NCBI GenBank assembly: GCA_025981645.1
Contig: JAICXH010000009.1
Span: 1-45,992 of the forward strand
From: Burkholderiales bacterium
GTDB taxonomy: Bacteria > Pseudomonadota > Gammaproteobacteria > Burkholderiales > Casimicrobiaceae
Length of the DNA stretch: 45,992 bases
Direction of reading: 5' to 3'
Positions 5,151 through 45,992 of this stretch are shown here, in pieces. The position numbers were made by a program, and so were the translations under genes. How positions within the stretch are numbered: position 1 is the first letter of the stretch; each line of letters opens with the position of its first letter. The notes under the pieces are model-generated. The model searched no databases. It worked only from the letters and a program-made list of their open reading frames with translations, and was not told where the DNA came from.

Positions 5151-5165
5151 GCGGCGTTCGCGGCC

Positions 5166-7786: not shown

Positions 7787-7866
7787 CAGCGAAAATCTCA
7801 ACATTTTCCAGCCGGCTTATCGCACGGAATCGAAGGCCGCGTCAACCTTCCTTGTAAATCAATGGC

Positions 7867-11949: not shown

Positions 11950-12025
11950 TGGGGTGGCGGATGGGAATCGAACCCACAACAGCCGGAATCACAATCCGGG
12001 ACTCTACCGTTGAGCTACCGCCACC
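11950..12025 (-). tRNA. tRNA-His (GTG)
   Basis: Reading the minus strand, the sequence folds as a cloverleaf with acceptor GGTGGCGG pairing CCGCCACC, where the extra 5' G pairs with the discriminator C as in all tRNA-His. The anticodon loop is TTGTGAT with anticodon GTG, and the T loop is GTTCGATTC. CCA is encoded at 11952-11950. It lies 43 bases from a tRNA-Arg on the same strand. Confidence 0.97.
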
Positions 12026-12068
12026 GCTGGGAACGCTCTGCAGGGCCGCGACGCCATCCCGCGCGTCG

Positions 12069-12145
12069 TGGCACGCCCGACAGGACTCGAACCTGCAACC
12101 GCCGGCTTAGAAGGCCGGTGCTCTATCCGGTTGAGCTACGGGCGC
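12069..12145 (-). tRNA. tRNA-Arg (TCT)
   Basis: The minus strand gives a 77-base cloverleaf starting GCGCCCG and ending CGGGCGTGCCA. The anticodon stem is CCGGC/GCCGG, the anticodon is TCT and the T arm has GGTTCGAGTCC. The 3' CCA is encoded. No integrase or direct repeat of its 3' end was seen nearby, so there is no sign that it serves as an integration site here. Confidence 0.97.
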
Positions 12146-12234
12146 GAAGCCTTGCCTGCGGGATGCCCTATGGTAGCAGAACGACGCTCGGCTGCCGTAC
12201 AGTTGCAGCTTTGATCGTCGCCGCAGGAGCGGGC

Positions 12235-22793: not shown

Positions 22794-24142
22794 CGCCTCG
22801 CCGGGTCGAAGTGCCGTTCCAGGTCCAGCCAGCAGCGATAGTACTCGGCCTGCAATTGCGAAGTCTCGAGCGCAAAGCGCGTCGGCCGGATCACGCAGCG
22901 CGTTTCGAACATGATCGCCATCGTGTCACGGATGTAATCGGGGTGGCTGATGTCGGCGCGGCTCGCCTTCTCGAACGTCTGCGCATCAGGACCGTGCGCG
23001 GTCATGCAGTTGTGCAGGCTCGCGCCGCCCGGCACGAACCCTTCCGCCTTGGCATCGTAGACGCCGCGAACGAGTCCCATGAACTCGCTCGCGACATTGC
23101 GATGGAACCACGGCGGGCGGAACGTGTGCTCCATCGCGAGGATCCGCGGCGGGAAGATCGCGAAGTCGACCGTGTCGACGCCCGGCGTGTCGGACTGCGA
23201 CTGCAGAACCAGGAAAATCGACGGATCGGGGTGGTCGTAGCTGATCGATCCGATCGCGTTGAAACGGCGCAGGTCGTACTTGTACGGTGCGCCGTTGCCG
23301 TGCCACGCGACGACGTCGAGCGGTGAGTGATCCATCTCGGCGACCCAGAGGTTGCCCATGAAGCGCGCAACGAGCTCGGACTTTGCGTCGCGGTCCTCGT
23401 ACCACGCGGCCGGCGTCAGGAAATCGCGTGAATGCGCGAGGCCGTTGGAGCCGATCGGGCCCATCTCGGGGAGGCGGAACGCTGCGCCGAAGTTCTCGCA
23501 GATGTAGCCGCGCGCTGTCACATCGACGAGCTCGACGCGGAAGCGCACGCCGCGCGGGATCACGACGACCTCCTGCGGTGCCGCTTCGACGATGCCCAGC
23601 TCGGTGACGAAGCGCTGGCGCCCTTCGTGGGGAACGATCAGCATCTCGCCGTCGGCGCTGTAGAAGTAGCGATCGGTCATCGACCGGTTCGCAGCATAGA
23701 GGTGGATGCCGCAGCCGGTCTGCTGGTGCGGATCGCCGTTGCCGGCGATCGTGACGATGCCTTCCACGAAATCGGTCGGCGCCGCGGGAACGGGAAGCGG
23801 ATCCCAGCGGAGCTGGTTGGGCGGCGCCGCGACGGCGCCGAAGTCGCCGTCGTAGCGTCCGTTGTCGATGCGCCGGAACGGCCGATGCACCGCCGCCGGG
23901 CGGATCCGATACAGCCATGTCCGCCGGTTGGCTCCGCGCGGTGCGGTGAACGCGGTTCCCGAGAGCTGCTCGGCGTAGAGCCCATACGGACACCGCTGCG
24001 GTGAATTCTGCCCGATTGGCAATGCGCCGGGCAGCGCCTCGGTCGCGATTTCGTTGCCGAATCCAGAGTGGTAGCGAAGCTCCGGGTGCCCGCCCGCAGC
24101 GGCCGCGTTCTCGCGCAATGCGTGGCTAGAGGATGTGGCCAT
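22790..24142 (-). CDS. hmgA: Homogentisate 1,2-dioxygenase
   Basis: This non-haem iron enzyme opens the ring of homogentisate to give maleylacetoacetate. The 450-residue protein has [20 protein letters not shown] at the N-terminus, WLYRIRPA, and the C-terminal iron-binding section [20 protein letters not shown] with further histidines in [14 protein letters not shown] lies six bases before the ATG. It starts 12 bases after the DUF2783 gene and overlaps fahA, so it is embedded in the operon. Identification is secure. Confidence 0.98.
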
Positions 24143-29692: not shown

Positions 29693-30757
29693 ATGAAGAT
29701 CGGCATCGTCGGCGCAGGCGCGATCGGCGGATTGTTCGGCTTCAGGCTCGCCAGCGCCGGCCACGACATGTCGCTGCTCGCGCGCGGTGCGACGCTCGCG
29801 GCGCTCACCCGTGACGGACTGCGGCTGCGCGACGGCGATACGCTGCACAGCCTACCGGTGCGCGCCGCCGATTCGCCTGAAGCCCTCGGCCGGCAGGATC
29901 TCGTCGTCGTCGCGGTGAAGGCACCCGCACTGCCGGAGCTCGCGCCGACGCTCTCGCCGATGATCGGCCCGGAGTCGCTCGTGCTCTCCGCGATGAATGG
30001 CATCCCGTGGTGGTTCTTCGACGGGCTCGGCTGGCCGCCGGGGAACGGGGTACCCGGCGATGGCGCTCCGAGGAACGTCGCGCAGGGGAGCGCAGAACCC
30101 GTGATCGACTCGATCGATCCTGGAGGAGTGCTTCGCGCGAGCTTCCCGCGCGAGCGGACGCTGGGCTGCGTCGTGCACCTGAGCGCCGCCGCAACCGGGC
30201 CGGGAATCGTCGAGCCGCGAATGGGCAATGCACTCATCGTCGGCGAGCCCTACGGCACCTCCACGCAGCGTCTCGCGAAGCTCGCCGCCGTCCTTCGCGA
30301 CGCCGGCTTCGAAGTCGAGACGAGCCCGCGCATCCAGCGCGACGTCTGGTACAAGCTCTGGGGCAACATGACGATGAACCCGCTGTCGGCGATCACCAAT
30401 GCCACGGCCGACCGCATTCTCGACGACCCGCTGGTGCGCGCCTTCGCGAGCCACTGCATGCGCGAAGCCGCCGCGGTCGGCGCGGCGATCGGGCTGCCGA
30501 TCGATGCCGACCCCGACGAGCGCCACGCGGTGACGCGCAAGCTCGGACGATTGCGCACGTCGATGCAGAACGACGTCGAGGCGCGCCGCCCGGTCGAGCT
30601 CGACGCCTTGGTCGGTGCCGTGCGCGACATCGCGCGTCTCGCCGGCGTCGCGACCCCCGAGATCGACACGCTGTTCGGCCTCGCGCGGCTGCACGCGCGG
30701 GTACTCGGCGTCTACCCCGAGGCTGCAGCGACGCGGAAGGAGTCAAGCCATGCCTGA
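29693..30757 (+). CDS. Ketopantoate-reductase-family oxidoreductase
   Basis: This 354-residue NAD(P)-dependent reductase begins [20 protein letters not shown], the Rossmann fold of the PanE/ApbA family. The catalytic lysine is in [20 protein letters not shown], and the C-terminal helical domain contains [18 protein letters not shown]. Near residues 112-135 it carries a Gly/Pro-rich stretch ([19 protein letters not shown]) longer than I expect at that point. The ATG at 29693 matches the normal N-terminus. It overlaps hppD by eight bases. Its place between a sulfatase and HPPD suggests reduction of an aromatic 2-keto acid rather than vitamin synthesis, but this is not shown by sequence. Confidence 0.87.
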
Positions 30758-31826
30758 CCTGTTCGACAACCCGATGGGCCTGACCGGTTTCGAGTTCGTC
30801 GAGTTCGCGTCACCGACTCCGGGGCTCCTCGAGCCGCTGTTCGAGCGGATGGGCTTCGCGCATGTCGCGAATCATCGCTCGAAGGATGTATCGCTCTATC
30901 GGCAGGGCGACATCAACTTCATCGTCAACCGCGAGCCGAAGAGCGCGGCAGCGTACTTCGCCGCCGAGCACGGACCGTCGCCGTGCGGGATGGCGTTTCG
31001 CGTCCGCGATTCGCATCGCGCCTATGCGCGTGCGCTCGAGCTCGGCGCGCAGCCCGCCGATTCGCCCCCGGGCCCGATGGAGCTGCGGCTGCCGGCGATC
31101 CGCGGGATCGGCGGTGCGCCGCTCTACCTGATCGACCGCTTCGAGGAGGGCCGCGCAATCTACGACATCGACTTCGAGTTCCTGCCCGGAGTCGATCGTC
31201 GTCCCGCAGGTCACGGCCTCGGGGTGATCGATCACCTGACCCACAACGTCTACCGCGGCCGGATGGGTTACTGGGCCGAGTTCTACCAGCGCATCTTCAA
31301 CTTCCGCGACATCCGCTACTTCGACATCAAGGGCGAGTACACGGGCCTCACCTCGCGCGCGATGACCGCGCCCGACGGCAGGATCCGCATTCCGTTGAAC
31401 GAGGAGGCTTCGAAGGAGACCGGGCAGATCGAGGAATTCCTGATGAAGTTCAATGGCGAGGGCATCCAGCACATCGCGCTCCTTGCCGACGACCTTCCGG
31501 CAACCCTCGACCGGCTGCGCGCAGCCGGTGTACCGATGATGGCGCCCCCTCCCGCGACGTATTACGAGATGCTCGACGAGCGCCTTCCCGACCACGGCCT
31601 CGACGTCGCCAGGCTCGCCGCGCGCGGCATCCTGCTCGACGGCACCACCGAAGGTGGCTCGAAGCGGCTCCTGCTGCAGATCTTCTCGGCGACGATGATC
31701 GGCCCGGTGTTCTTCGAGTTCATCGAGCGCCGCGGCGACGACGGCTTCGGCGAAGGCAACTTCAAGGCGCTGTTCGAGTCGATCGAACGCGACCAGCTTC
31801 GCCGCGGGGTGATCGGCGCACGCTAG
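30750..31826 (+). CDS. hppD: 4-hydroxyphenylpyruvate dioxygenase
   Basis: This iron enzyme converts 4-hydroxyphenylpyruvate, from tyrosine, to homogentisate. The 358-residue protein has two vicinal-oxygen-chelate domains. Iron ligands are seen in [23 protein letters not shown] and [24 protein letters not shown] and [20 protein letters not shown] are signature stretches. GGAAGGAG lies ahead of the ATG at 30750. It is the last gene of the plus-strand operon and supplies the substrate for HmgA in the opposite operon. Its TAG stop overlaps the stop of the converging cyclase gene in the palindrome CTAG. Confidence 0.97.
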
Positions 31827-34255
31827 CGCCCGCGCTCAAGCGCCAGCGATTCGCCGAGATAGCGCGCAGCGTCCTCGAGCGCGCCGCGCTCGCGTGCGAC
31901 TTCGGCTGCGCGCTCGAAGCATTCGGCCGCACGCGCGGGCTCGTCGGCAGCGCGCCAGTGCGCGGCGAGCGTCGCGTGGTGCGACGACAGGTCGGCGCAT
32001 TCGCGCTCGTACCACTGCGCGATGTCGCGGTGGAGCTGGCGCCGCTGCGCAAACGGCATCCGCGCATACGCGGCGTCGCGCAGCGCCGGCTGCGTGAAGC
32101 GGTAGCGCGTCGACGCGAAGGTTCCGCCGCCGTCGCCGGGTCGCGGCACACGCTCGACGAGCCGCTGTGCGACAAGCGCGTCGAGATGCGAGGCGACCCC
32201 CGCCCCGGCGGTACCCTGCGGATGCACGGCGGAGAGTGCTCCGAGCGTGAATTCGCTGCCGATCGCGCTCGCCGTCTTGACGAGCGCCTGATCGATCGGA
32301 TCGAGAAGGTCGAGCATGCGCGCTGCGCCCGCGGCGTCGGCGACGGTCTCGCCACGGGGACGGTAAACGCGGACCGGCTCGGCGAAGCCCTTGACGCGGA
32401 TCGGCGCCAGCGCTTCGAAGTCGATTTCCTCGTGCGCTGCGGCATGGATCGCCTCGCCGCAGAGGGTCGTTCCGGGCTCGGCCGCCATCATCAGCCGGGC
32501 GGCGAGGTTCGCCCGATCGCCGAACACCGTGTAGGCGCGCTGCGCCGCACTGCCGAACGCTCCGGTGCGAAGCGGACCCCATGCGAGCCCGACGGCAACG
32601 TCGCGGATGCCATCCTGCTCGGGTGGCGGGCTTTGCAGCGCGAGCGCCCCGCGCACCGCGCGCAGCGCATCGTCACGGTGGGCGACCGGAACGCCGAACA
32701 CGATATGGAAGTACGCGCCCTTGTCGTCGTGGACGAGCTGCAGCAGGGTCCCGTCGAAGCGCATGGTCACCGCCTGCACCCAGCGCACGAACGAGTCGAG
32801 CTTCACCCCTGCCGCGGAATCGCGCTCATAGTCGAGCCCGGCGAAGCGCAGGAACAGCGTCGCCGCGGGCCGGAGCTCGGCGAGCGCAGCGCTCTGGCGC
32901 GCGTGCACACGCGCATAGACCGCAGGCGCGAGCCACGGCCGTACGCGCTCGTCGTCGAGCACTCCTGCGGCGAGCGCCGGCCAGGGTGAGGGCTCGACCG
33001 TCTGGCGCAATGCGGCAACGGTCATCGACGCGCCGCGACCGTCGTCGCGCCATTCGCCGACCGCGATCGCCTGAGCGAGCGCCTCGGAGAGCCGGCGATT
33101 GACAATCACCTCGCCACGTTGCGCGTGACGGAGTGCCGCGCTGAGTTCGTGCATCACCGTTCCGCCAAGCGTCTCGACGACCTGCGTCGCCGGGTCGCCG
33201 GCGAGCAGACGTCTCCCGGGCCCGAGCGCGACCGCGACCTTGACGCCGAGCGAGACCTCGACGCCTCCGGGCGCAGTCACCGCTTCGAGCGTCTGCAACC
33301 TGCGCTGCATCGCGAACGCGCAGGCGACCGCGCGTGCTGCGGCGTCCCCGTCGAACCAGCAGGTGATCGCGTCGCCGCCAAAGCCCACGACGCTGCCGCG
33401 GTAGCGGTGGACCTCGTCGGTGAGGAGCGCCAGCACGCGGTTGACCTCGCGCGTCAGCTCCTCCGCCCCTCGCTCGACGCCGAGCGCCTGCGTGAACGCT
33501 TCGGCGAGCGGGGTGAAGCCCGCGATGTCGGCGAGGAGCGCGCAACCCTCGACGTCCTCCGGAAGATCGCGCCCTTCGACGAGGGCGGCGCGGCGATCCA
33601 TCGGCACCCACGCCGCAGCAGATTCGGCAGCGGCGGCGTTGCGCTCATCGAGGTCCTGCTGCAACTGCCTGAGCTGCTGCTTCAGCCGCTGCTCGCGGGC
33701 GGCAACCTCGCGCACCATGCCGCCGAACATCCGCGCAAGATTGCCGAGCGCGTCGTCGCGCGCGGTGACCGCAGCAATCGCTGCCTCGTCGTAAGTCGCC
33801 TCCTGCACCGCCTTCGCCGCCCCGGTAAGAACCTCCACGGCGCGCAGGTACTCGATCTCGCGATCGCGGCGAAGCTTGCGCTCGAGGCCTGCGCCGATCC
33901 GCGCGTGCAGCAGCACTGGCTCGAACGGCTTCGGCAGGTAATCGTCGGCGCCGAGCGCGATCCCGCGGACGATGCTCGCGAGATCGCTCATCGCCGAGAT
34001 GACGACCACCGGAATGTCGTGTGTCGACGGATCGACCTTCAGGCGCTCGAGCACCGCGAAACCATCCATCACCGGCATCATGATGTCGAGCAGGATGAGA
34101 TCGGGCGCCTCGCTGCGAACGGCGTCGAGCGCGGCAGCGCCGTCGCCCGCCGACACGGTGTCGTAGCCGAGATCCTCGAGCTCCTGCTCGAGATAGTCGA
34201 CATTGAAGGGCTCGTCGTCGACGATCAGGATCTTCGCGCGCGGAGCGACCGCCAT
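31823..34255 (-). CDS. Receiver-linked tandem class III cyclase, soluble-adenylyl-cyclase-like
   Basis: This 810-residue protein starts with a receiver domain (phospho-acceptor D57), then a coiled coil (residues 185-215), then two unequal cyclase domains. C1 (about 235-400) has both metal aspartates, D243 in LLADIAGFT and D295 in GFGGDAIT, but lacks the Asn/Arg pair. C2 (about 460-630) has R470 in place of the first Asp but keeps K512 in DDKGAYF, N583 and R587. This split matches mammalian soluble adenylyl cyclase, so the pair should form one active site. The last 160 residues resemble the helical/TPR part that usually follows a P-loop ATPase, yet no Walker motif exists. It starts three bases after the stand-alone receiver gene. 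Confidence 0.88.
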
Positions 34256-34258
34256 TGG

Positions 34259-34615
34259 TCAGGACTTCAAATACTGATCGAGCTTGCGGAACAGGAGCGC
34301 GTCGTCGACCGGCTTCGTCATGTAATCGCTGCACCCAGCCGCGAGCGCGCGCTCGGCATCTCCCGCCATCGCGTGCGCCGAGAGCCCGATGATCGGCAGC
34401 TTTGCTCCGCTCGCGCGAATGCGCCGCGTCGCCTCGTAGCCGTCGCAGATCGGCAGCGACATGTCCATCAGGATCAGGTCGGGGCTCGCACTCGCAGCGA
34501 GCGCCACGCCCTGCTCGCCGTCCTTTGCGATCGCGAGCTCGTAGTCGTCCTCGAGCAACTGGGTGAGGAGCTCGATGTTGAGATCGACGTCCTCGACGAT
34601 CAGGATCTTCTTCAT
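34259..34615 (-). CDS. Stand-alone CheY-like response regulator
   Basis: This 118-residue protein is a single receiver domain with no output domain. The acidic pocket is E8-D9, the phospho-acceptor is D51 (ILMDMSLP), and the signalling residues are S79 in GLSAHA and K101 in TKPV. It resembles receivers such as DivK that pass phosphate on. It ends three bases before the receiver-cyclase gene and begins 21 bases after a low-GC gene of unknown function. It probably carries phosphate between the large hybrid kinase and the cyclase, since no HPt domain was found in the operon. Confidence 0.92.
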   Translation of the reverse strand: MKKILIVEDVDLNIELLTQLLEDDYELAIAKDGEQGVALAASASPDLILMDMSLPICDGYEATRRIRASGAKLPIIGLSAHAMAGDAERALAAGCSDYMTKPVDDALLFRKLDQYLKS

Positions 34616-34636
34616 AGGGTGACGGCTATCCTATTG

Positions 34637-35353
34637 CTATTCATTTCCGAAAAGGTATGGGAAGAAGGCACCTGGGTCGACGTTAATCTTAAGCGGAAAC
34701 CTCGGATTGCCCTCCAAATAACCATCCGCAAATACGACAATTCGCCACTCGTCCTGATCGACGAACGGAAACATTGGTTGCTTACGGAGCACGTCTACAT
34801 TTAGCGGTCGAATGTAACTGGCAGGGTTACGCGATAAGCAGAGTGGACTCCCACCGATCGAGTGAAGCGAATGCGTCAGAGCTGTTCGTTGGTATGACAC
34901 CGGACCGTATCGATATCCGTTACAGCGAACCAACTGCGAGCATCGGTAGAGCACTTCAGCGCTTAGCCTACTTATGCTTCGGATTCCAAACGTGTGCCCA
35001 CCAAATGCACGCACTTGCGCCAACCGGATTCCCGACCCATGCATCGAAAGTATGTAATGAGGGTCGAATCTCTGCGAAATCTCCCCGTCTCCAAAGATAT
35101 GGACAGAAGGTCCGTTTTGAGGTGCAACCTTTATCGGTATTACGGTTGATGTCCCGTTTGTCCCCTCAGAGCGGTCACGCCGCACAGTATCCTCGATCTC
35201 GCGGAAATATTGATCAGAGCGTAGCCAAAGTGACCCAGTCGCCAGAGTCGCTGTGTATACGTCGCGAGACGATGTACGGAACAAGATTGGTTCATCGATC
35301 TCAGTCGCAATTGCTCCAACTGGCTCGTTCGGCATATCAACTTCCATGAGCAC
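34637..35353 (-). CDS. Hypothetical protein, low GC, possible accessory or defence gene
   Basis: I do not recognise this 238-residue protein. The GTG start at 35353 is chosen because AAGGGAG lies five bases upstream; an ATG two codons later is also possible. No signal peptide or membrane segment is seen. Notable stretches are ILFRTSSRDVYTATLATGSL, SDQYFREIEDTVRRDRSEGT, a central FGDGEISQRFDPHYILSMHG and a C-terminal VDQDEWRIVVFADGY. The pattern of an aromatic/acidic N-terminal motif, an EG turn and a late Q/D-E-W-R motif recalls uncharacterised proteins of the DUF2971 kind often found in accessory islands, but I cannot assign it. It follows the TPR-like gene by 81 bases. Confidence 0.65.
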   Translation of the reverse strand: MLMEVDMPNEPVGAIATEIDEPILFRTSSRDVYTATLATGSLWLRSDQYFREIEDTVRRDRSEGTNGTSTVIPIKVAPQNGPSVHIFGDGEISQRFDPHYILSMHGSGIRLAQVRAFGGHTFGIRSISRLSAEVLYRCSQLVRCNGYRYGPVSYQRTALTHSLHSIGGSPLCLSRNPASYIRPLNVDVLRKQPMFPFVDQDEWRIVVFADGYLEGNPRFPLKINVDPGAFFPYLFGNE

Positions 35354-35434
35354 GAATACTCCCTTTGATCGTCGGTCGCGCGCCGAATGGACCGCGGGAG
35401 TTTTGAGCATCCACGTGCCGGGACGCCTGAGTGG

Positions 35435-35887
35435 TCAGGTCGGCTTGGCCGCCGCGAGCAGTGCTCTTGCTGCCGCGACTCGGTTTTGGAAGATATTCTT
35501 CTGCGCTGTCAGTATCACTGTTTCGCGTGCATCGGCACCGCCTCCCATATAGAGATGCTTGATCGCTTCCAAATAGAGCTCACAGTATTCGATTTCCTGT
35601 GCGTAGTTCTTTTGCTTCCTGGAGAGTATTGCGACTCGTTCGAAGTAGTACGGCGCCGGTGCTAGGCCAGCAATTCGCATGGTGTTGAGTTGGGCCGTGC
35701 AACACCGCTTCATACAATCGATATTGTGCTTCTCCGATTGAGCGAGCTCCCACGCGTGCTTGCCGTCGACGAGGTTAGCACCACGAGTAACCTCGGTAAT
35801 CAGTTCACCGGAGGTCTTGAAAGTGTCATCTGGCTTTGTTAAATCTGGGTTCGCTTCACTGAGCAGATGCTGCAATTTGGTCGCCAC
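35435..35887 (-). CDS. Hypothetical helical/TPR-like protein, low GC
   Basis: This frame gives a 150-residue protein from the GTG at 35887, which has GAGGAA five bases upstream. A TTG at 35947 would add 20 residues with no ribosome-binding site. The middle holds a helical hairpin PAPYYFERVAILSRKQKNYA followed by QEIEYCELYLEAIKHLY, a TPR-like pattern seen in many small uncharacterised proteins. Three cysteines cluster in DCMKRCC. It starts 67 bases after the kinase stop, on the same strand. It may act with the downstream 238-residue protein, as the two share the same unusual base composition. Confidence 0.65.
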   Translation of the reverse strand: MATKLQHLLSEANPDLTKPDDTFKTSGELITEVTRGANLVDGKHAWELAQSEKHNIDCMKRCCTAQLNTMRIAGLAPAPYYFERVAILSRKQKNYAQEIEYCELYLEAIKHLYMGGGADARETVILTAQKNIFQNRVAAARALLAAAKPT

Positions 35888-35954
35888 TCGGTTTCCTCGC
35901 CGAAAGAGGTGATCAGGGCCTTCGTAATCTATTCGGCCGTGATCCAACCTGGAT

Positions 35955-38900
35955 CTATTTCAGAACTCCTTCGATTTCGCGGATCAGCGCCTCGCCCGCG
36001 AGCCCCTGCTTCTGGATGATCCGGGCGACGCTCGCATTGAGCCCCTCAGATTCCTCGGCCGAGAGGCTCTTCGCAGTCAGCACGACGACCGGGATCGAGC
36101 GCAGTGCCGGGTCGCTCCGCAGCCGGCCGATCACGCCGAAGCCGTCGAGCCCGGGCATCATCAGGTCGAGCAGGATCGCATCCGGGCGACGCCTCGCCAA
36201 AGCCTCCATCGCCGCCTCGCCGTCTGCGACCGCTTCGATCTCGTAATGCTCGCCGAGGAGCTGCGTCACGAGGTCGATCACGTCGGGATCGTCGTCGGCA
36301 ACGAGAATCCGCTTCGGCGCGGTGCCGCCGTTTCGCTGCGCGACGCGCTTCAACGCAGCGATCACCGCCTCGGCGTCGAACGGCTTCATCAGATAGTCGG
36401 CGGCGCCGAGCGCGAAGCCGAGCGCCTTCTTGTCAACGATCGTCAGCATCACGACCGGTATCTCGCGCGTCGCTGGATCGGCCTTGAGGTCGTACAGAAC
36501 CTCCCAGCCGTCCTTCTGCGGCATCATGACGTCGAGCGTGATCGCCTTCGGGTGCAGCGCCTTCGCGCGCGCGATCCCTTCCTCGCCTCCCTGCGCCCCG
36601 ACGACGCGGAAGCCGGCTTCGGCGAGGTTCTCTTTCAGGATCTCGATGTCGTTCGGGTTATCGTCGATCGCGAGGACGAGTGGCGCTGCCGCTCGGTCAT
36701 CTGCAGTAATGGCCGCCGGTTCGCTTGCGCCGGCGTCGACTCTCGGTGCAGGTGCTTCCACGGTGGTAGTAACGGCAGCCGCCGCGGCCACGCTCGCCGC
36801 CACCACTTCCGCACGCTCGCTGTAGCGCAACGGCACCGTCAGCGTGAACGTCGATCCGCGGTCGACTTCGCTCGTCACCGTGATGTCGCCGCCGAGCAGT
36901 CGCGCGAGGCTGCGGCTGATCGAAAGGCCGAGCCCGGTGCCGCCGTACTTGCGTGTCGTGCTGGTGTCTGCCTGCTGGAACTCCTCGAAGATCCGGCCGA
37001 TCGCTTCCGGCGTCATTCCGATGCCGGTATCGGTCACGGTGACCGTCAACCGGTCGCCGGCGGTCGCGGCACCCACGGTGATCGTTCCGCGGTGCGTGAA
37101 CTTCGCCGCGTTGCCGAGGAGGTTCAGGATGATCTGCTTGATCTTCTCCTGGTCGGAATGCACGCGCGCGAGACCGCTCGCGTAGGCTTTCGCGAGCGTC
37201 ACTCCGGGCTTCAGGAGCGGCGCCGCCGTCGTCACGCACTGGTCGGCAAGCTGGACCGGATCGAAGTCCGACGCGGTGACATCCATCCGGCCGGCCTCGA
37301 TCTTCGCGATGTCGAGCACGGTGTTGATCAGCGAAAGGAGGTGCTCGGCGCTCGTCAACACCTTGTCGAGGTTATCGGTCTGCTTCTCCGGGAGCGCACC
37401 CTCGGCCTTGCGGCGGACGATCCGCGTGAAGCCGATGATCGCGTTCAACGGCGTGCGGAGCTCGTGGCTCATGTTGGCGAGGAAGGTGCTTTTCGCCCGG
37501 TTTGCGTGCTCGGCGACCGTGCGCGCCTCCTGCGTCTCGGCGAAGAGGCGCGCGCTTTCGAGCGCGACGCTCATTCCGCTCGCGAGCGTCGTCACGAGCC
37601 GCACGTCCGACTCGCTGAACGCGTTCTCGCGGTCGACGTTCTCGAGGCCGATCACGCCACGCACCTCGCCGCCGACAATGATCGGCACCCGCAGCATGCA
37701 CTTCGTCGGCGCTGTGCCAGGGACGAGCTCGACCTCGATCCCGAGCTCGGCCATTCGCTCGTCGAACTTCTCGTTGATCGCGAGCGTTTGCCGGGTCCGG
37801 ATCAGGTGGTGGCTGAGCGCCGCGATCGTCTCGTCGGGAAGCTCGTGGCGCTTCCCGTGCTCCATGAAGTAGTGGTAGTGCCGAAGGTTGCGCGCGAGGT
37901 CGAACGACGCGAGGCTGATGCCCTGCGTATCGTGGAAGAGCTCGCAGAGCTTCTCGCCGACGAGGTCGTAGATTGCATGCTCGTCGAGCTTGGATGCGAG
38001 CGCCACCTGTACGCTGTTGATGATCGCGAGCTCGGCTTTCCCCTGCTCGGTCTCCTTCAGCAGGCGTTGCGTCTCGTCGAAGAGCCGCGCGCTCTCGAGC
38101 GCCACCGTCATCGTGCTGGCGAGCGTTTGCAGGAGGCGTACGTCGCTCTCGCCGAACGCATCCTCGCGCTGCATGTTGCTGAGGGTCACCAGGCCGCGGA
38201 CTTCCCCGGCGACGATCAGTGGAACGTGGACCGACGATTTCGCCATCTCGGTTCCCGGAAGCACCGAAGACCCGTAGCGAACGAGCGCACCCTCCATGTC
38301 ACGGTTGATCACCAGCGGCTCGCGCGTCCTGATCACGTGGCCGGTAATGCCTCCGTCGCGAAGCGGGTGGGCCGCGATCGAGAGGGCCTTGCCGTTCTCG
38401 TAGGTATACGGATAGTGGACGAGCCCCGTGCGCGGATCGAGAACGCGGATCGACATGTCGGTGTGGTGGAACACTTCGCGCACCTTGTCGCCGACCGCGT
38501 CGTAGATGCCCTGCACGTTGAGTTCGGAGGCGAGCGCTGCCTGCACACTGTTGATGATCGCGAGTTCGGCGTTGCGTTGCTCGGTCTCCTTCAGGAGGCG
38601 CTGCGTCTCGTTGAAGAGCCGCGCATTCTCGAGCGCGACGCTCATACTGTTGGCGAGGGTCTGCAGCAGGCGGACGTCGGATTCGGAGAATGCGTGCTCC
38701 GACTCGACGTCGGCGAGCGCGATCACACCGCGCGCCTGGTCGCCGGCGACCATCGGCACGAACACCGCCGACTTGTCCTCGGTAGTACCCGGCAGAATGT
38801 ACGAGCCGTACTCCTCCAGCATCAGGCGCATGTTCTCGTTGATGACGAGCGTCTCGCGCGTGCGCAGCACGTACGCCGCGAACCCGGTACCCCCGAGCGG

Positions 38901-41900
38901 CCCCGACGGGATCACCAGCCGCTTCCCGTTCTCGTAGGCGTAGGGGTAGTGGATGAGGTCGGTCGCAGGATCGTAGACGCGGATGCTTATGTCGCGGTTG
39001 CCGAAGATCTCGCGGATCTTATCGCCGACGGCGTCGTAGATGCCCTGGATGTTCAGCTCGGCCGCGAGCGCCGCCTGCACACTGTTGATGATCGCGAGCT
39101 CGGCGTTTCGCTGCTCGGTCTCCTTCAGTAGCCGCTGCGTCTCGTTGAAGAGGCGCGCGTTCTCGAGCGCAACGCTCATGCTGTTGGCAAGCGTCTGCAA
39201 GAGGCGCACGTCCGACTCGGAGAACGCGTGCTCGCGCTCCATGTCCATCAGGCAGATCGCACCGCGCGCCTGGTCGCCCGCGATCAGCGGAACGTGGACC
39301 GCGGATTTCTCCATCCCGGTGCCCGGCACCGTCGACGATCCATAGCGCCGCACCGTCTCCGCCATACCCTCGTTGACGACCAGCGTTTCGCGCGTGCGCA
39401 GCACGTGTGAAGTAAAGCCCTTGTGGAGCGGCTCCGAATCGATCGCGATCCGCTTCCCGTTTTCGTAGGTGTACGGGTAGTGGACGAGGTTCGTTGCCGG
39501 GTCGTAGACGCGAATGCCGACGTCGCGTTTGCCGAAGATCTCGCGGATCTTGTCGCCGACCGCGTCGTAGATCCCCTGGATATTGAGCTCGGCGGCGAGC
39601 GCCGCCTGCACGCTGTTGATGATCGCGAGCTCGGCGTTGCGCTGCTCGGTTTCCTTCAGAAGCCGTTGCGTCTCGTCGAAGAGCCGCGCGTTCTCGAGCG
39701 CGTTGCCGAGCGACGCGGCGATCGTCGTCATGAGACGCACATCGGAATCCGAGAACGCGTTCTCGCGCTCGTAGTTTTCGATTGAGATCGTTCCGAGGAC
39801 GCGATCGGCACTGACGATCGGCACGCGCATCATCGATTTGCTGTTGTCGGTCCCTGGAACCACGGTGATACTCAGCGCCTGGGCTTCCGCCCATGTGTTG
39901 ATCACCAGCGGCTGCTTCGTGCGGCGCATCGTCTCGAACGGGCCGTCGGGTGCCGGGGCGGTCGGCGCGATCGAGAGCCGCTTGCCGTGTTCGTAGACGT
40001 ACAGGTAGTGACTGCGGTTCGCCTTCTCGTCGTACCAGGCGATGACGAGATCGGGGGTCGCAAAGACTTCGCGAAGCTTGTCGCCGACGAGGTCGACGAT
40101 CCCCTGGAAGTGCAGCTCGGAGGCAAGCCCCTGCTGGATCGAGTTGATGATCGCGAGCTCGGCGTTTCGCTGCTCGGTCTCCTTCAGGAGGCGCTGGGTC
40201 TCGTCGAAAAGCCGCGCGTTCTCGAGCGCGACGCTCATGCTGTTCGCGAGCGTCTGCAGGAGCCGGACGTCCGACTCCGAGAACGCGTGCTCGCGCTCGA
40301 GGTCGCTCATCTGGATGAGCCCGCGTGCCTGATCACCGCTGACGAGGGGTACGTAGACGGCGGACTTCTCGGACTCGGTGCCGGCCATCGTGAAGCTGCC
40401 GTACTTCGCCGACACCTCGTCCATCTTCTCGTTGACCAGCAGCGTTTCGCGCGTGCGCAGCACGTGTGCGCCGAAGCCCTTCTCCGACAGGGAATGAGTC
40501 TCGATCGCGATGCGCTTTCCGCTCTCGTAGGTGTACGGGTAGTGGACGAGATTCGTTTTCGGGTCGTAGATGCGGATGCCGATGTCCCGATCGTCGAAAA
40601 TCTCGCGAATCTTGTCGCCGACCGCGTCGTAGATACCCTGGATGTTGAGCTCCGCCGCGAGCGCCGCCTGCACGCTGTTGATGATCGCGAGCTCGGCGTT
40701 CCGTTGCTCGGTTTCCTTCAGCAAACGCTGCGTTTCGTCGAACAGCCGCGCGTTCTCGAGCGCCACCCCCATGCTCGATGCGACGGTCGTCAACAATCGG
40801 ACGTCGGATTCGCTGTACGCGTACTCGCGCTCGAAGCTCTCGACGGTGATGGCACCGAGAACGCGGTCGCTGCCGATGATCGGAACGCTGACGACCGACT
40901 TCGAAACATCGGTTCCCGGAACCACACCGTGCGCTGCAGACTCGGCGACGGTATTGAAGACGAGCGGATCGCGTCGCGCGATCAGCTCGCCCCACCCCTT
41001 CTTCGGCGGCGCCGAAGGAATCGTAAGACGCTCCCCATGCTCGTAGTCGTAGAGGTAGTGGACGATCTTCCGGTCGTGATCGAACCAGCGAATCCCGATG
41101 TCCTCGGTCTTCAGCACCTCGCGGAGCTTGTCGCCGGTGAGGTCGACGATCTTCTGAAAGTCGAGCTCGGCGGCGACCCCTTGCTGGATGCTGTTGATGA
41201 CCGCGAGCTCGGCCGCACGCTGCTCGGTTTCTTTCAGGAGCCGCTGCGTCTCGTCGAAAAGCCTGGCATTTTCGAGTGCCGTTCCGAGCGACGCGGCGAC
41301 GGTCGTCAGCAGCCGGATCTCGGATTCGCCGAACGCGTTCTCGCGCTCGTGATTCTCGATCGAGACATCGCCGAGGAAGCGCTCGCCGCTGACGATCGGA
41401 ACGGAGATCATCGACTTCGCGGTATCCGTGCCCGAAATGGTTCCGGACGCGAGACGCTTGAAATCGGCACGATCGTTGAATACCGCCGGGGTGCGGGTGT
41501 TCATCAGGATCCCGTAAAGGCCCCCAGGTCGAGGTGCCATCGGCGGAAGCGTTAGGCGTTTGCCGTGCTCGCAGGCATACATGAAATGCGCGAGATTCGC
41601 TTTCTCGTCGTACCACGAGATGCCAAGATCGCGCGTTGCGAACACCTCGCGCAGCTTGTCCCCGACAAGATCGACGATCGCCTGGAAGTGAAGCTCCGCG
41701 GCGAGCCCCCGCTGGATCGAATTGATGATCGCGAGCTCGGCGTTGCGTTGCTCCAAACCGGCGTTCGACGCCGCGAGCTCCGTGGTGCGCTTCGCGACCT
41801 TCGCTTCGAGTCCTTCGGCCCACTCGGCGTTGTCGAGTGCGACCGCAGCCTGGTTCGCGAGCGTGCCGAGGAGATCGCGATCGACTTCGGTGAAGCGGCC

Positions 41901-43706
41901 GTAGGCGCCGTCGATGTCGGCATAGAGATAACCGGCGATCCGGTTGCCGGAAACCAATGGCGCGACGATCGTCGAGCGCTGCGCGGGCGCGGGCCCTTTC
42001 TCCGGGGCGAACGCAAGCTGCGCAAGGCCAGCGGTGCGCGCGATATCGAGCTCCGCCTCGACCTCGCGCAGCAGAGCGGCGGTATCCTCGCCGTGAGGGA
42101 CGAGCGAATCGGCGATGATTCGCCGACCGCCGTCTTCGAGGATCAGAAGGACGCGCTCACCGCCGGTGAGCTCGGTCGCCTCCTCGACGATGAAGGTTCG
42201 AATCTCCTCGGGAGTCCGCAGCGCGTTCAGCCGCAACCCGGTCTCTGCAAGACGCTCGAACGGCTCGCGGACATCCGACTCGGAGGCAAGATGCGCGTAG
42301 CGCTTCGCGCGGGGAAGGCGCCGGTTCGCGGGGTCCGCGAGCCACGCCAAGACAATCTCGCGGTTGGCTGCGACTTTATTGAGAACGTTGCGGCGAAGAC
42401 CCTCGTCGCGCTGGTGCGCGATGCTCTTGATGAGGAACCCGTAGGCTCGCGCGAGTGCCGCGTGCGCCTCGCGGCCGCGCCCGTTGGCGGCGAGCGCCTG
42501 CGCGTGGCGCCACCAGATACCCTGCCTGCCGGAGTCATGAATATGCGGATAGCCGAGCCGGCGATGCAATTCCGTCGCGCGGCTCGTCGTGGCCAGCGCC
42601 GCCTTCGTGTCGCCGAGGGTGAGCAGCGCGTTCGCCTGCGAGGTCAGTGCGTCGAGTTCGTCGGGGGCCATCCGGCGCTCGTGCGCGATCGCGGCCGACC
42701 GCCCGAATTCGCGGACGGCCCTGACGGCGTCGCCCTCCCAAAGAGCGAGACTGCCGTACGGTCCGACAAGGAGGAAATCACGATCCGGTTCGTCGAGGCC
42801 CTCCGCCATTTCCTCGAGGTGACACAGATGCCCTCGCGCCGCGGCGGAATCGCCGCTCCGGCAACACACCTCGACGAGGTTGGCGACGACGACGGCCTCG
42901 TTCCGGGAGTTCCCGATGCGGCGCTCGATGGCAGCCGATTCCTCTTGCAGGCGAATCGCGTGCCGGTAGAGACCCAGTTCGAGGTAGCGGATACCGAGGT
43001 TGTTCAGCGCACCGCTGCGCCGCGCGAGCGCCTCCCCGTGCTCGAACGCGGCAATCGCCTGCCTCAGATGCCGCATGCCGTCCGCCGTGTCCGCGTCCGC
43101 GGTGCCGATCGCCATCAGCGCGCCGCCGACCCCGACGGCGTCCCCGGCGGCGCGGCAGAGCTCGAGCGCCTTGCGAGCGCTTCGTTGCAGCCCGGCGTGC
43201 CGGCCCCGACGCCACTCGACGATCGCGACGACCCGGTGCGCGCGTCCCTCTCCGGCGAGGTCCGTCAGGTCGTGAAAGAGCGACGACGCCGCACTCGCAT
43301 CCCGCAGGGCGCGCTCGTGCGCCTCCGCGCGCAGCGCGACTTCGGCGCTTCCGAGGAGCGCCTTCGCGACCAGTCGCCGGTCGCGGCTCCTGCGCGCGTA
43401 CGCGAGTGCGCGCTTCGCGACCTCGACCGCTTCCTCGACGTGTCCACGGCGAGCTTCGACCTGGGCGGAGACATCGAGCGCCTGCGCGTGTGCGGCCGAT
43501 GAGCCGTCCTTCGCGGCGATGCGACCCATCGCGAAGACGTTTTTCGACGCGGCCTCGAAATCACCGCGATCGAGCGCTGCCAGCGCCCGCTCGCCCAGTT
43601 TCGCAAGGTTCTTCTCGCCGGATCGCGCCGACGATGCGGATCGCGGCGCCACGCGCGATCGTGGCGCGCGCGCGGCAAGCCGTGATGACGACGAAATCGA
43701 GGCCAT
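35955..43706 (-). CDS. Giant TPR / nine-GAF / hybrid histidine kinase with two receivers
   Basis: This 2583-residue cytoplasmic sensor has no membrane segment. Order: Ser/Arg-rich leader, TPR helices (about 25-450), one divergent GAF (about 485-650), eight homologous GAF domains in tandem (about 662-2070), HisKA with H2081 in MSHELRTPLNAIIGF, HATPase (KQIILNLLGNAAKFTHRG, TGIGM, GGTGLGLSI), then two receivers with D2392 and D2514. Each tandem GAF ends in a near-identical linker helix (ALENARLFDETQRLLKETEQ). GGAGG lies six bases before the ATG at 43706; a longer frame to 43823 was not used. It leads an operon with two receivers and a cyclase downstream. The GAF ligands are unknown. Confidence 0.93.
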   Translation of the reverse strand: MASISSSSRLAARAPRSRVAPRSASSARSGEKNLAKLGERALAALDRGDFEAASKNVFAMGRIAAKDGSSAAHAQALDVSAQVEARRGHVEEAVEVAKRALAYARRSRDRRLVAKALLGSAEVALRAEAHERALRDASAASSLFHDLTDLAGEGRAHRVVAIVEWRRGRHAGLQRSARKALELCRAAGDAVGVGGALMAIGTADADTADGMRHLRQAIAAFEHGEALARRSGALNNLGIRYLELGLYRHAIRLQEESAAIERRIGNSRNEAVVVANLVEVCCRSGDSAAARGHLCHLEEMAEGLDEPDRDFLLVGPYGSLALWEGDAVRAVREFGRSAAIAHERRMAPDELDALTSQANALLTLGDTKAALATTSRATELHRRLGYPHIHDSGRQGIWWRHAQALAANGRGREAHAALARAYGFLIKSIAHQRDEGLRRNVLNKVAANREIVLAWLADPANRRLPRAKRYAHLASESDVREPFERLAETGLRLNALRTPEEIRTFIVEEATELTGGERVLLILEDGGRRIIADSLVPHGEDTAALLREVEAELDIARTAGLAQLAFAPEKGPAPAQRSTIVAPLVSGNRIAGYLYADIDGAYGRFTEVDRDLLGTLANQAAVALDNAEWAEGLEAKVAKRTTELAASNAGLEQRNAELAIINSIQRGLAAELHFQAIVDLVGDKLREVFATRDLGISWYDEKANLAHFMYACEHGKRLTLPPMAPRPGGLYGILMNTRTPAVFNDRADFKRLASGTISGTDTAKSMISVPIVSGERFLGDVSIENHERENAFGESEIRLLTTVAASLGTALENARLFDETQRLLKETEQRAAELAVINSIQQGVAAELDFQKIVDLTGDKLREVLKTEDIGIRWFDHDRKIVHYLYDYEHGERLTIPSAPPKKGWGELIARRDPLVFNTVAESAAHGVVPGTDVSKSVVSVPIIGSDRVLGAITVESFEREYAYSESDVRLLTTVASSMGVALENARLFDETQRLLKETEQRNAELAIINSVQAALAAELNIQGIYDAVGDKIREIFDDRDIGIRIYDPKTNLVHYPYTYESGKRIAIETHSLSEKGFGAHVLRTRETLLVNEKMDEVSAKYGSFTMAGTESEKSAVYVPLVSGDQARGLIQMSDLEREHAFSESDVRLLQTLANSMSVALENARLFDETQRLLKETEQRNAELAIINSIQQGLASELHFQGIVDLVGDKLREVFATPDLVIAWYDEKANRSHYLYVYEHGKRLSIAPTAPAPDGPFETMRRTKQPLVINTWAEAQALSITVVPGTDNSKSMMRVPIVSADRVLGTISIENYERENAFSDSDVRLMTTIAASLGNALENARLFDETQRLLKETEQRNAELAIINSVQAALAAELNIQGIYDAVGDKIREIFGKRDVGIRVYDPATNLVHYPYTYENGKRIAIDSEPLHKGFTSHVLRTRETLVVNEGMAETVRRYGSSTVPGTGMEKSAVHVPLIAGDQARGAICLMDMEREHAFSESDVRLLQTLANSMSVALENARLFNETQRLLKETEQRNAELAIINSVQAALAAELNIQGIYDAVGDKIREIFGNRDISIRVYDPATDLIHYPYAYENGKRLVIPSGPLGGTGFAAYVLRTRETLVINENMRLMLEEYGSYILPGTTEDKSAVFVPMVAGDQARGVIALADVESEHAFSESDVRLLQTLANSMSVALENARLFNETQRLLKETEQRNAELAIINSVQAALASELNVQGIYDAVGDKVREVFHHTDMSIRVLDPRTGLVHYPYTYENGKALSIAAHPLRDGGITGHVIRTREPLVINRDMEGALVRYGSSVLPGTEMAKSSVHVPLIVAGEVRGLVTLSNMQREDAFGESDVRLLQTLASTMTVALESARLFDETQRLLKETEQGKAELAIINSVQVALASKLDEHAIYDLVGEKLCELFHDTQGISLASFDLARNLRHYHYFMEHGKRHELPDETIAALSHHLIRTRQTLAINEKFDERMAELGIEVELVPGTAPTKCMLRVPIIVGGEVRGVIGLENVDRENAFSESDVRLVTTLASGMSVALESARLFAETQEARTVAEHANRAKSTFLANMSHELRTPLNAIIGFTRIVRRKAEGALPEKQTDNLDKVLTSAEHLLSLINTVLDIAKIEAGRMDVTASDFDPVQLADQCVTTAAPLLKPGVTLAKAYASGLARVHSDQEKIKQIILNLLGNAAKFTHRGTITVGAATAGDRLTVTVTDTGIGMTPEAIGRIFEEFQQADTSTTRKYGGTGLGLSISRSLARLLGGDITVTSEVDRGSTFTLTVPLRYSERAEVVAASVAAAAAVTTTVEAPAPRVDAGASEPAAITADDRAAAPLVLAIDDNPNDIEILKENLAEAGFRVVGAQGGEEGIARAKALHPKAITLDVMMPQKDGWEVLYDLKADPATREIPVVMLTIVDKKALGFALGAADYLMKPFDAEAVIAALKRVAQRNGGTAPKRILVADDDPDVIDLVTQLLGEHYEIEAVADGEAAMEALARRRPDAILLDLMMPGLDGFGVIGRLRSDPALRSIPVVVLTAKSLSAEESEGLNASVARIIQKQGLAGEALIREIEGVLK
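37530..41735 (-). repeat. Eight tandem GAF-coding units of 516-536 bases
   Basis: The antisense image of the linker coding AELAIINS recurs near 41721, 41191, 40675, 40141, 39612, 39081, 38548 and 38012, a period of 516-536 bases. Units fall into two types at the protein level: one with IVDLVGDKLREVF (units 1, 4 and, more loosely, 2) and one with IYDAVGDKIREIF (units 3, 5, 6, 7). The last unit is most divergent. The linkers are the most conserved parts. Confidence 0.9.
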
Positions 43707-43831
43707 GCGTTCCCTCCGGCACACCGGAACTCGGAAACGCGGTGGCGCCGCCTCCTCTCCGGGACGCCCGATGTTGCGGCGGCGGCCGCGACCGGTCAAG
43801 CGGCCCAATCGGCCGCGGGCCAATGAACCGC

Positions 43832-44956
43832 TCAGCGGCTCGCGGCGAGCGCGACGATCACGTTGATCTCCTTGCCGTCGCGCAGCACGCCGAGGCGCAC
43901 GCGCGCGCCCGGGTTGAAGTCGTCGAGGCGCGCCTGCAGCCGCGACGGGCTCGTTACCGGCTTGCCGTCGATCGACACGATGACGTCTCCCGGGATGATC
44001 GATCCCCGTTCGAGCTTCGCCCCACGCAAGCCCGCTGCGGCGGCAGGGCCGCGCGGAGTCACTTTCAGCACGAACACACCCTCGACACCGAGCCGCGAGC
44101 TCAGCAGGTCGTTGAGATCGGGGTCGATCTCGATGCCGAGCGTCGGACGCGTGTAATGGCCGTGCTCGATCAGCGCGGTGACGACGCGGTTGATCGTGTC
44201 CGCGGGAATTGCGAAGCCAATCCCGGCCGATGCCCCGCTCGGGCTGAAGATCGCCGTGTCCATGCCGATGAGACGCCCCGCACTGTCGAGAAGCGGGCCG
44301 CCGGAGTTGCCCGGGTTGATCGCGGCGTCGGTCTGGATCAGGTGCTCGATCGTGTTGCCATTGTCGTCGTCGATCGAGCGGTCGATCGCCGAGACGATGC
44401 CGGTGGTCAGCGTCCAGTCGAGGCCGAACGGATTGCCGATCGCGTAGACCTGCTGACCGACCCGGAGATCGTGGCTGGTGCCGAGCGGCAACGCAGGCGG
44501 CGGGTTGGATGGCACGCGAATCCGCAACACCGCAATATCGTGGAACTGGCTCGCGCCGACGAGCGTCGCCGCGTAGTCACGGCCGTCGTTCAGACGCACG
44601 CTGGCGGCCGACGCGCCGGCAATCACGTGGTAATTGGTGATGACGTGGCCGGCATCGTCCCATATGATGCCCGAACCCGTGCCGCGCGGTATGGTGCGAA
44701 CGTTGCGCGACCACAGGTCGCGCACGCGCTCCGACGTCGAGATGTAGACGACCGAGCGCTTCGATTTCTCGAAGACGTCGATCGTGCGCTGTTCGTCGGC
44801 GGCGAGCGGACCGCGCGGCGTGACCGGGCGCGCGTGAGCGACGGAAGGCGTCACGGCCGCGGCGACGAAAGAGAAGAGCAACGCGCCGGCGAGCGTGCCG
44901 GTGAGCGCGCCGCCGGCGACGCGGCGCGAATGCGCAGGTTCAATGCGGGGACGCAT
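43832..44956 (-). CDS. HtrA/DegQ-type serine protease with PDZ domain
   Basis: This periplasmic quality-control protease has an N-terminal hydrophobic signal or anchor (residues 14-41 from the ATG at 44956), then a trypsin-like domain with H110 (TNYHVIA), D140 (FHDIAVL) and S218 (NPGNSGGP), then one PDZ domain (VFVLKVTPRGPAAAAGL, SIIPGDVIVSIDGKPV). One PDZ and a possible anchor make it closer to DegS than to two-PDZ DegP. An upstream ATG at 44989 would add 11 residues. Either start lies inside or against the divergent nnrS start. The kinase gene begins 125 bases downstream on the same strand. Confidence 0.92.
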   Translation of the reverse strand: MRPRIEPAHSRRVAGGALTGTLAGALLFSFVAAAVTPSVAHARPVTPRGPLAADEQRTIDVFEKSKRSVVYISTSERVRDLWSRNVRTIPRGTGSGIIWDDAGHVITNYHVIAGASAASVRLNDGRDYAATLVGASQFHDIAVLRIRVPSNPPPALPLGTSHDLRVGQQVYAIGNPFGLDWTLTTGIVSAIDRSIDDDNGNTIEHLIQTDAAINPGNSGGPLLDSAGRLIGMDTAIFSPSGASAGIGFAIPADTINRVVTALIEHGHYTRPTLGIEIDPDLNDLLSSRLGVEGVFVLKVTPRGPAAAAGLRGAKLERGSIIPGDVIVSIDGKPVTSPSRLQARLDDFNPGARVRLGVLRDGKEINVIVALAASR

Positions 44957-45992
44957 GGGCAGGCTGATTCGCACGATCAACGCATTCATTCTACCGGCGG
45001 CGGGATTGTCGCCGAAAATTCCGCACCGCTGGTTCTTCCCCGCGGCCGCGGTCTACGCGGCTCTGGCGCTCCCGGTGTCGGTGCTCGCGATGCAGGGCTC
45101 GATTCCCGGCCCAGCGGCGCTCGCGAACCCGCTCGGGCATGCGCACGAGATGCTGGTCGGCTTCGCGCTGGGCGTCGTCGCGGGCTACCAGCTTCCGCTG
45201 ATGGCGCGCAGCCGCCTCATCGCCATGTTCGGGCTCTGGCTCGCCGGCCGCGCGCTGTTCCTCGCGTTTCCCGCAAGTCTCGCCACATCGGCGGCCGATA
45301 TCGCGTTCGCGCTGATCCTCGCCGCACACATCGCCCCGCGTCTTTTCGTCGCCGCGAAGAAGCTGCGCAACCTCGCACTGCCGCTCGTGCTGTCGGGGCT
45401 CTGCGTCGCCGCTGCGCTGTTCGACGCGTTCCTGTATGTAGCGCTCGTCGTCCCGCTGCAGGCGGTGGTGCTCGCGTTCGTGCTGCTCCTCTGCGCATTG
45501 ATGCTCTTCATGGGCGGGCGCATCCTCGCTCCCGCCGTCGCCGGCCAGTTCTATCGCCAGGGACAGAACCTCGCGGCGCGAGTCCAGCCGCGTATCGAAG
45601 CGGCGCTGCTGATCCTGGTCGGCATCGCCATTGTTGCCACGGGGCTTCCCGCAGCGGGTGTGATCGCCCGCGCCGCCTGCATCGCGGCGGGCATCGTCGC
45701 CGTCGTCCGCCTCGCGCGCTGGCGCATCTGGGAATGCCGGGGACGGCCCGATCTCGCATGCCTCGGCGTTGGCTACGCATGGCTCGCGCTCGGTCTCGTT
45801 GCGCTCGGCGCGAGCGAGACCGGGCCGCTTCGCACCGCCGCGATCCACTGCATCACCGTCGGTGCGCTCGGCACGCTGACCTTCAACGTGATGGCGGGGA
45901 CGGTCATGCTGCGCGCCCGCCTCGAGCGCGCCAGCGAGCCGCGACTCGTCTGGGGAACGGCGCTGATCGCTGCGGCGGCCGTGCTTCGCATC
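44955..45992 (+). CDS. nnrS: NnrS family membrane protein, 3' end outside window
   Basis: The plus strand stays open to the window edge and encodes at least 346 residues of a multi-pass membrane protein. HRWFFPAAAVYAALALP, NPLGHAHEMLVGFALGVVAG and IHCITVGALGTLTFNVMAG are NnrS hallmarks, with conserved histidines inside membrane helices. NnrS is a haem- and copper-containing protein that helps cells resist nitric oxide stress. The start is uncertain: ATG at 44943 or 44955, or TTG at 45006. The ATG at 44955 overlaps the complementary ATG of the protease gene (CATG), so the two genes begin head-to-head with no gap. Confidence 0.88.
   Translation, partial: MGRLIRTINAFILPAAGLSPKIPHRWFFPAAAVYAALALPVSVLAMQGSIPGPAALANPLGHAHEMLVGFALGVVAGYQLPLMARSRLIAMFGLWLAGRALFLAFPASLATSAADIAFALILAAHIAPRLFVAAKKLRNLALPLVLSGLCVAAALFDAFLYVALVVPLQAVVLAFVLLLCALMLFMGGRILAPAVAGQFYRQGQNLAARVQPRIEAALLILVGIAIVATGLPAAGVIARAACIAAGIVAVVRLARWRIWECRGRPDLACLGVGYAWLALGLVALGASETGPLRTAAIHCITVGALGTLTFNVMAGTVMLRARLERASEPRLVWGTALIAAAAVLRI

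Follow-up and report, generated by a model that had tools for sequence, protein, structure and literature searches.

Organization of the kinase–cyclase locus

The 45,992-nucleotide (nt) stretch analysed here (the window) is one entire contig, JAICXH010000009.1, of a Burkholderiales bacterium of the family Casimicrobiaceae (assembly GCA_025981645.1; 2.76 Mb in 154 contigs, 87% complete). Its minus strand carries, in order of transcription, genes for an HtrA-like protease, a giant hybrid histidine kinase (35955–43706), two proteins encoded by DNA of low G+C content (GC), P0004 (35435–35947) and P0003 (34637–35410), a single-domain receiver (34259–34615) and a receiver fused to a tandem class III cyclase (31823–34255), hereafter the receiver-cyclase. 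The gaps measure 7 nt between the kinase and P0004, 24 nt between P0004 and P0003, 21 nt between P0003 and the single receiver and 3 nt between the single receiver and the receiver-cyclase. Pfam matches and coordinates bear out the original prediction on the gene set, including a kinase with nine GAF domains, on the gene order on one strand and on the three bases separating the last two genes. This tight spacing, together with the absence of a terminator-like site on the operon strand, leads us to infer that the genes are co-transcribed.

The kinase open reading frame (35955–43823) opens with a TTG at 43823, from which we number its residues; a more probable start is the ATG at 43706, which has GGAGGGA in front of it and is the one originally proposed. 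Pfam recognises nine GAF stretches (GAF_2, E 7e-130), HisKA, HATPase_c and two Response_reg domains (REC1 and REC2), and the N-terminal region is TPR-like, with a TPR_12 match slightly below the Pfam cut-off. The phospho-sites H2120 (HisKA), D2431 (REC1) and D2553 (REC2) are all present, as are D51 of the single receiver (Pfam Response_reg) and D57 of the receiver-cyclase. The phospho-acceptor parts are therefore intact, and the locus encodes what defines a two-component system: HisKA with its phospho-histidine, HATPase_c, and receivers with their phospho-aspartates.

The GAF array comprises one divergent first GAF and eight repeats spaced at 171–178 residues. Repeats 3, 5, 6 and 7 are mutually 63–80% identical, repeats 1, 2 and 4 are 58–66% identical, and repeat 8 is 45–50% identical to the rest, so that eight of the nine GAFs fall into roughly three repeat types. 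Counted with one model, related kinases in three congeneric genomes contain eight (G018), five (G013) and three (G017, two of them strong) GAFs; since this model misses or barely detects the divergent first GAF, G018 and G013 may each have one more. In a locus from an Anaerolineales metagenome-assembled genome (L039, Chloroflexota) the same model finds seven GAFs, five of them strong, and Pfam at least six, a minimum because this kinase runs off the contig start. Since the array grows and shrinks between relatives, nine different ligands are unlikely, and the earlier idea of many small-molecule inputs is weakened by an array made mostly of repeats of a few types.

The receiver-cyclase is a soluble adenylyl cyclase-type enzyme with an N-terminal receiver

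In the receiver-cyclase Pfam recognises Response_reg and Guanylate_cyc, the best stretch of the latter (residues 513–625) corresponding to C2; C1 was not reported by Pfam, even at E values up to 5. It was revealed by a phmmer comparison with human ADCY10, in which two stretches covering both halves matched (chain E 4.4e-24). When an AlphaFold model built from eight sequences (mean predicted local distance difference test score, pLDDT, 78.9) was used as a Foldseek query, the top 24 matches were all human soluble adenylyl cyclase (sAC), the best at E 2.2e-24 with a template modelling (TM) score of 0.77 on the target. The model places helices at 109–151 and 169–209, between the receiver and C1, giving the order receiver, helical linker, C1, C2 and C-terminal tail.

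A tandem C1/C2 cyclase needs two metal-binding aspartates in C1 (here D243 and D295) and a lysine, an asparagine and an arginine in C2 (here K512, N583 and R587); these C2 residues, and the threonine T576, we take to have active-site roles. D243, D295, N583 and R587 are identical in 15/15 aligned proteins, and K512 in 14/15. The sAC-like tandem C1/C2 architecture of the original prediction is thus recovered by sequence comparison, by fold and by catalytic residues. PMC12250328 gives Asp47, Asp99 and Thr405 as reference active-site positions of human sAC, and Lys95 and Arg176 as its bicarbonate site. The latter pair corresponds to G291 and S372 in the receiver-cyclase, which therefore does not have this site; among the 15 aligned proteins the first position is Lys in one and the second is Arg in none, and the bicarbonate site is perhaps a trait of mammalian sAC, not necessarily of the whole sAC group.

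The AAA/NTPase region that follows C2 in other members of the group is absent, by alignment, from the five receiver-fused proteins (window, G018, G013, G017 and L039) and from an Anaerolineae protein (L040); it is present in L041, L042, L044, L045, L046, L124 and L126, with L043 and L123 cut short in this comparison. Receiver-fused proteins pass from C2 directly into a tail that appears from the alignment to be winged-helix/TPR-like, whereas AAA-type relatives pass into the ATPase. In a C1/C2 tree rooted at the midpoint, the five receiver-fused proteins and L040 form one clade (support 100/97), which fits a single loss of the ATPase together with an exchange of inputs within that branch. The receiver phospho-site D57 is retained in 5/5 receiver-fused members. 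Taken together, sequence and model indicate that the receiver-cyclase is a sAC-type tandem cyclase with one complete ATP site, which should make cyclic AMP (cAMP).

The L040 protein (4428–7865) joins the AAA-less cyclase and tail to a membrane/HAMP-like input, and its gene is preceded by one whose product resembles, by eye, an extracellular solute-binding protein.

The low-GC pair is an insertion and probably a passenger

P0004 (at most 170 amino acids, with a TTG opening and an uncertain start) and P0003 (257 amino acids) have GC values of 0.53 and 0.52, compared with 0.68 for the window. In the alignment with G018, similarity breaks off at the stop codon of the kinase gene and picks up again at the single-receiver ATG; this interval spans 1339 bases in the window (GC 0.53) versus 30 in G018. 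The kinase–single receiver gap is likewise short in G017 (26 nt) and L039 (12 nt), and in G013 177 nt separate the kinase from the receiver-cyclase. None of these four related loci has the pair, which is thus an insertion outside the conserved set and probably a passenger; here the original prediction, which had counted both genes as operon members, must be amended. We also considered an element with terminal repeats and rejected it, since inspection of the insertion ends gave no convincing repeats.

Could the pair instead be a working part of the pathway, such as a pair of modulators acquired in this lineage? Its location on the same strand, with gaps of only 7, 24 and 21 nt, would suit such a role. 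We nevertheless set this aside as very improbable, given that the insertion is missing from the G018, G017, G013 and L039 loci, that relatives of P0004 are plasmid-borne and adjoin other genes, and that P0003 has a relative in 0/249 other genomes of the window's order. P0004 relatives occur on 36 of 72,556 plasmid records; in the 20 of these 36 that were listed they are 39–58% identical and hypothetical or unannotated. Three of them (L132, L133 and L134) are unnamed proteins of ∼140–150 amino acids on plasmids of Methylibium, Pseudoalteromonas and enterobacteria. P0003 has no significant relative in these three plasmid stretches, no match in Pfam, NCBIfam or PADLOC, and no relative among viral contigs or plasmids; its two PHROGs matches are weak (E 0.0025 and 0.21) and have no assigned function, and an AlphaFold model from the single sequence was unusable (pLDDT 30).

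The kinase–receiver–cyclase linkage is conserved

A search of the window's family with the cyclase matched 7/64 genomes at E 1e-40. Four of these (the window, G018, G013 and G017) encode the receiver-fused form, which is thus rare; G031 and G034 are of the AAA type by alignment, and the seventh is G656. Across 398 genomes of the window's phylum, the window alone matched the cyclase part at E 1e-20 among the candidates scored; since the phylum-wide cyclase and single-receiver searches scored part of the first-look candidates, their counts are lower bounds.

Loss of the linkage in relatives had been set beforehand as one test by which the original prediction might fail. In G018 the kinase, the single receiver (91% identical) and the receiver-cyclase are adjacent, as they are in G017, where the kinase has fewer GAFs. 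The L039 locus of the Chloroflexota likewise holds the kinase, a single receiver (68% identical) and a receiver-cyclase (48–50%). Counting G013, all three congeneric loci that have a complete receiver-cyclase retain the linkage, as does one locus of the Chloroflexota, and the prediction is not refuted on this count. The control set comprised 15 loci that have a sAC-group cyclase but no receiver; none adjoins such a kinase/receiver pair, with the proviso that several lie on short contigs. At one of them (L045) a kinase frame lies on the opposite strand.

Relative to the window, L039 is 74% identical in the receiver and 72% in the kinase core, and the congener G017 is 73% and 76% identical, respectively. 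That a Chloroflexota locus is about as near to the window as a congener hints at either horizontal transfer or old divergence. G018 carries, in addition, a tail fragment at the start of its contig C90.

Related kinase/receiver pairs are linked to varied outputs

With the single receiver as query, at least 28 loci were found in 26/301 genomes of the L039 phylum and at least 27 loci in 25/398 genomes of the window's phylum. Of these 55 loci, 10 have the receiver fused to a kinase and one (L190) is ambiguous; setting these 11 aside left 44 stand-alone receivers. A second receiver protein comes next on the same strand in 25/44, and in 15/44 (9/26 plus 6/18, window included; 14/43 without it) this second protein contains a class III cyclase. 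A kinase was recognised just upstream in 21/44, and kinase before and cyclase after were both recognised in 6/43 loci, excluding the window. According to Pfam, the output that follows the receiver in 19 effector proteins, some of whose frames are cut by the stretch available, is a class III cyclase, SpoIIE, GGDEF, a kinase or none that could be named. A HAMP match in the related effector L157 falls below the Pfam cut-off.

Across the 22 loci with a complete trio, a selection that leaves out G013 among others, the distances of the three partners (kinase, single receiver, effector receiver) are correlated (r 0.76, 0.71 and 0.64; 0/2000 permutations each). In a tree of the joined front ends, calculated without L048 because of its short kinase match, the cyclase loci (window, G018, G017 and L039) and two SpoIIE loci (L047 and L153) form one clade (support 100/99), within which L039 pairs with L047 (98/92). 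Closely related front ends therefore bear different outputs. Furthermore, the L047 and L153 kinases end after the ATPase domain with no receivers of their own, and so REC1 and REC2 are not essential to the design.

These results raise the possibility of a portable cassette of three genes (kinase, single receiver, effector receiver) that retains its input kinase and relay and swaps its output. Such a cassette would extend over the window's phylum, Chloroflexota, Verrucomicrobiota (L049) and Armatimonadota (L048), with tandem sAC-like cyclase, single class III cyclase, SpoIIE, GGDEF and kinase outputs; in the window's branch, a sAC-like cyclase without ATPase and bicarbonate site would have been brought under receiver control. 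We are evenly balanced on this generalization. Several observations weigh against the cAMP pathway proposed below: 19/44 stand-alone receiver loci have no recognised second receiver protein adjacent, and 23/44 no recognised upstream kinase; six of the 15 cyclase cases (L167–L172) are alike, probably close kin, and without a recognised upstream kinase; and the permutation test leaves shared ancestry in, so that common descent alone could give the distance correlation.

In five effectors (L049, L162, L181, L183 and L193) one or two HisKA-like domains without an ATPase precede the receiver of the cyclase protein, possibly as built-in phosphotransfer or dimerization domains. The genome of the window also has a second kinase/receiver neighbourhood (L207, G000:C101, 7715–14401), whose receiver (C101:10992–11342) is 55% like the single receiver.

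Proposed phosphotransfer to the cyclase

Given that the genes are neighbours and that the set recurs in another phylum, cAMP production is probably under the control of a two-component sensor, and we consider it likely that the operon forms a two-component cassette whose output is cAMP. The kinase would sense through its TPR/GAF array and autophosphorylate at H2120, from which the phosphoryl group would pass to D57 of the receiver-cyclase and D51 of the single receiver. The simplest route would be direct transfer from His to Asp, because the operon contains no HPt domain and the L047 and L153 kinases end after the ATPase domain; REC1, REC2 and the single receiver could then act as sinks, as intermediates or as allosteric partners. 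Once phosphorylated, D57 is expected to alter the helical linker between receiver and C1 and thereby raise or lower C1/C2 activity, with the receiver standing in for the AAA ATPase and the bicarbonate that serve as inputs in other enzymes of the sAC group. Seven proteins of the genome match cyclic nucleotide monophosphate-binding domains, and one or more of them may read the cAMP signal.

Alternatively, the operon may be a partial circuit, with the phosphoryl group travelling from H2120 through REC1/REC2 to an HPt encoded elsewhere and only then to the single and cyclase receivers. The kinase does bear two C-terminal receivers, as is usual in relays, four HPt matches were found on other contigs of the genome, and the ATPase-less HisKA domains of L049, L162, L181, L183 and L193 could act as phosphotransfer domains. 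However, the open frames that contain the four HPt matches are 683–1135 codons long, so that these matches look like parts of large proteins; Pfam (cut at E 0.01) finds no HPt in the operon proteins; and the L047 and L153 kinases have no receivers of their own. We regard this route as unlikely.

Less probable still is that the cyclase does not respond to phosphate from this kinase at all, adjacency reflecting co-expression and the receiver serving mainly in dimerization or localization. Kinase control of the cyclase is itself a prediction, and in L040 the same type of cyclase is joined to a quite different N-terminal part. This reading fits poorly with the retention of D57 in every receiver-fused member, with the joint divergence of kinase and receivers (shared ancestry still included) and with identical linkage in two phyla.

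Several points count against the cassette with a cAMP output that we favour. In G013 the single receiver is missing and the receiver-cyclase directly follows the kinase. The receiver-cyclase has 32 matches in the genome, almost all of them receivers, and with so many receivers cross-talk is possible. The T576 position varies among relatives (T, S, G or D), and the receiver was modelled poorly (pLDDT 38–69 per block of ten), so that the model does not predict how receiver and cyclase are arranged. Co-transcription was deduced solely from the spacing and the absent terminator-like site, and the insertion may have altered operon expression. Finally, both phosphotransfer and cyclase control are here read from sequence.

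Neighbouring genes

The HtrA-type protease gene (43832–44989, minus strand) lies directly upstream of the kinase, and in G018 such a gene (86% identity) also precedes the kinase. On the other side, the receiver-cyclase gene and a plus-strand gene for 4-hydroxyphenylpyruvate dioxygenase (HPPD; 30615–31826) share four bases at their 3' ends, and a homogentisate 1,2-dioxygenase gene (22790–24142, minus strand) lies near the operon. The window contains a second class III cyclase gene (12010–14874, plus strand), encoding a 954-amino-acid protein with Guanylate_cyc and TPR repeats.

Comparison with known systems

CyaC, a cyanobacterial cyclase associated with Kasahara and Ohmori (1999), is reportedly activated through autophosphorylation and phosphotransfer. 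It combines kinase, receiver and cyclase in one polypeptide. The chemistry proposed for the operon, a histidine kinase activating a class III adenylyl cyclase, is the same; in contrast, the parts are separate proteins in the window, G018, G017, G013 and L039, the cyclase consists of a tandem sAC-type C1/C2 where CyaC has one homodimeric domain, and the gene of a stand-alone receiver separates those of kinase and cyclase. The original prediction knew of no described pathway with these parts. This stands for the exact set but not for phosphotransfer from kinase to cyclase, which CyaC already exemplifies; the new form consists in separate proteins and a tandem sAC-type cyclase. In open-licence literature, seen in part, on kinase–cyclase links, response-regulator outputs, bacterial sAC-like proteins and the bicarbonate site, we found no description of a kinase/receiver/receiver-sAC operon, most subscription journals lying outside this scope; response regulators with cyclase outputs are tabulated in a survey of thermophilic cyanobacteria.

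Human ADCY10 shares the tandem C1/C2 core, being the best match by sequence and fold, and both metal aspartates as well as the C2 Lys, Thr, Asn and Arg are conserved in the receiver-cyclase. The latter differs in having an N-terminal receiver and no AAA ATPase, and in the replacement of the Lys95/Arg176 bicarbonate residues by G291/S372. If the proposed mechanism is correct, receiver control of a tandem sAC-type cyclase would show how the group that includes the bicarbonate-responsive mammalian enzyme is wired to other inputs in bacteria.

Six loci (L049, L162, L181, L183, L188 and L192) have the same gene order with a class III cyclase output, but with one cyclase domain per chain; all except L192 have a HisKA-like domain before the receiver, and no receivers are seen in the kinase of L192. 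Once the congeners and L039 are set aside, the nearest systems found are the receiver–SpoIIE regulators L047 and L153 of the Chloroflexota (67–71% identity in the kinase core, 64% in the single receiver and 64–67% in the effector receiver), which differ in their SpoIIE output and in kinases that lack receivers. With closely related kinases and receivers, the pair of L039 (cyclase) and L047 (SpoIIE) would provide a direct case for output swapping among response regulators.

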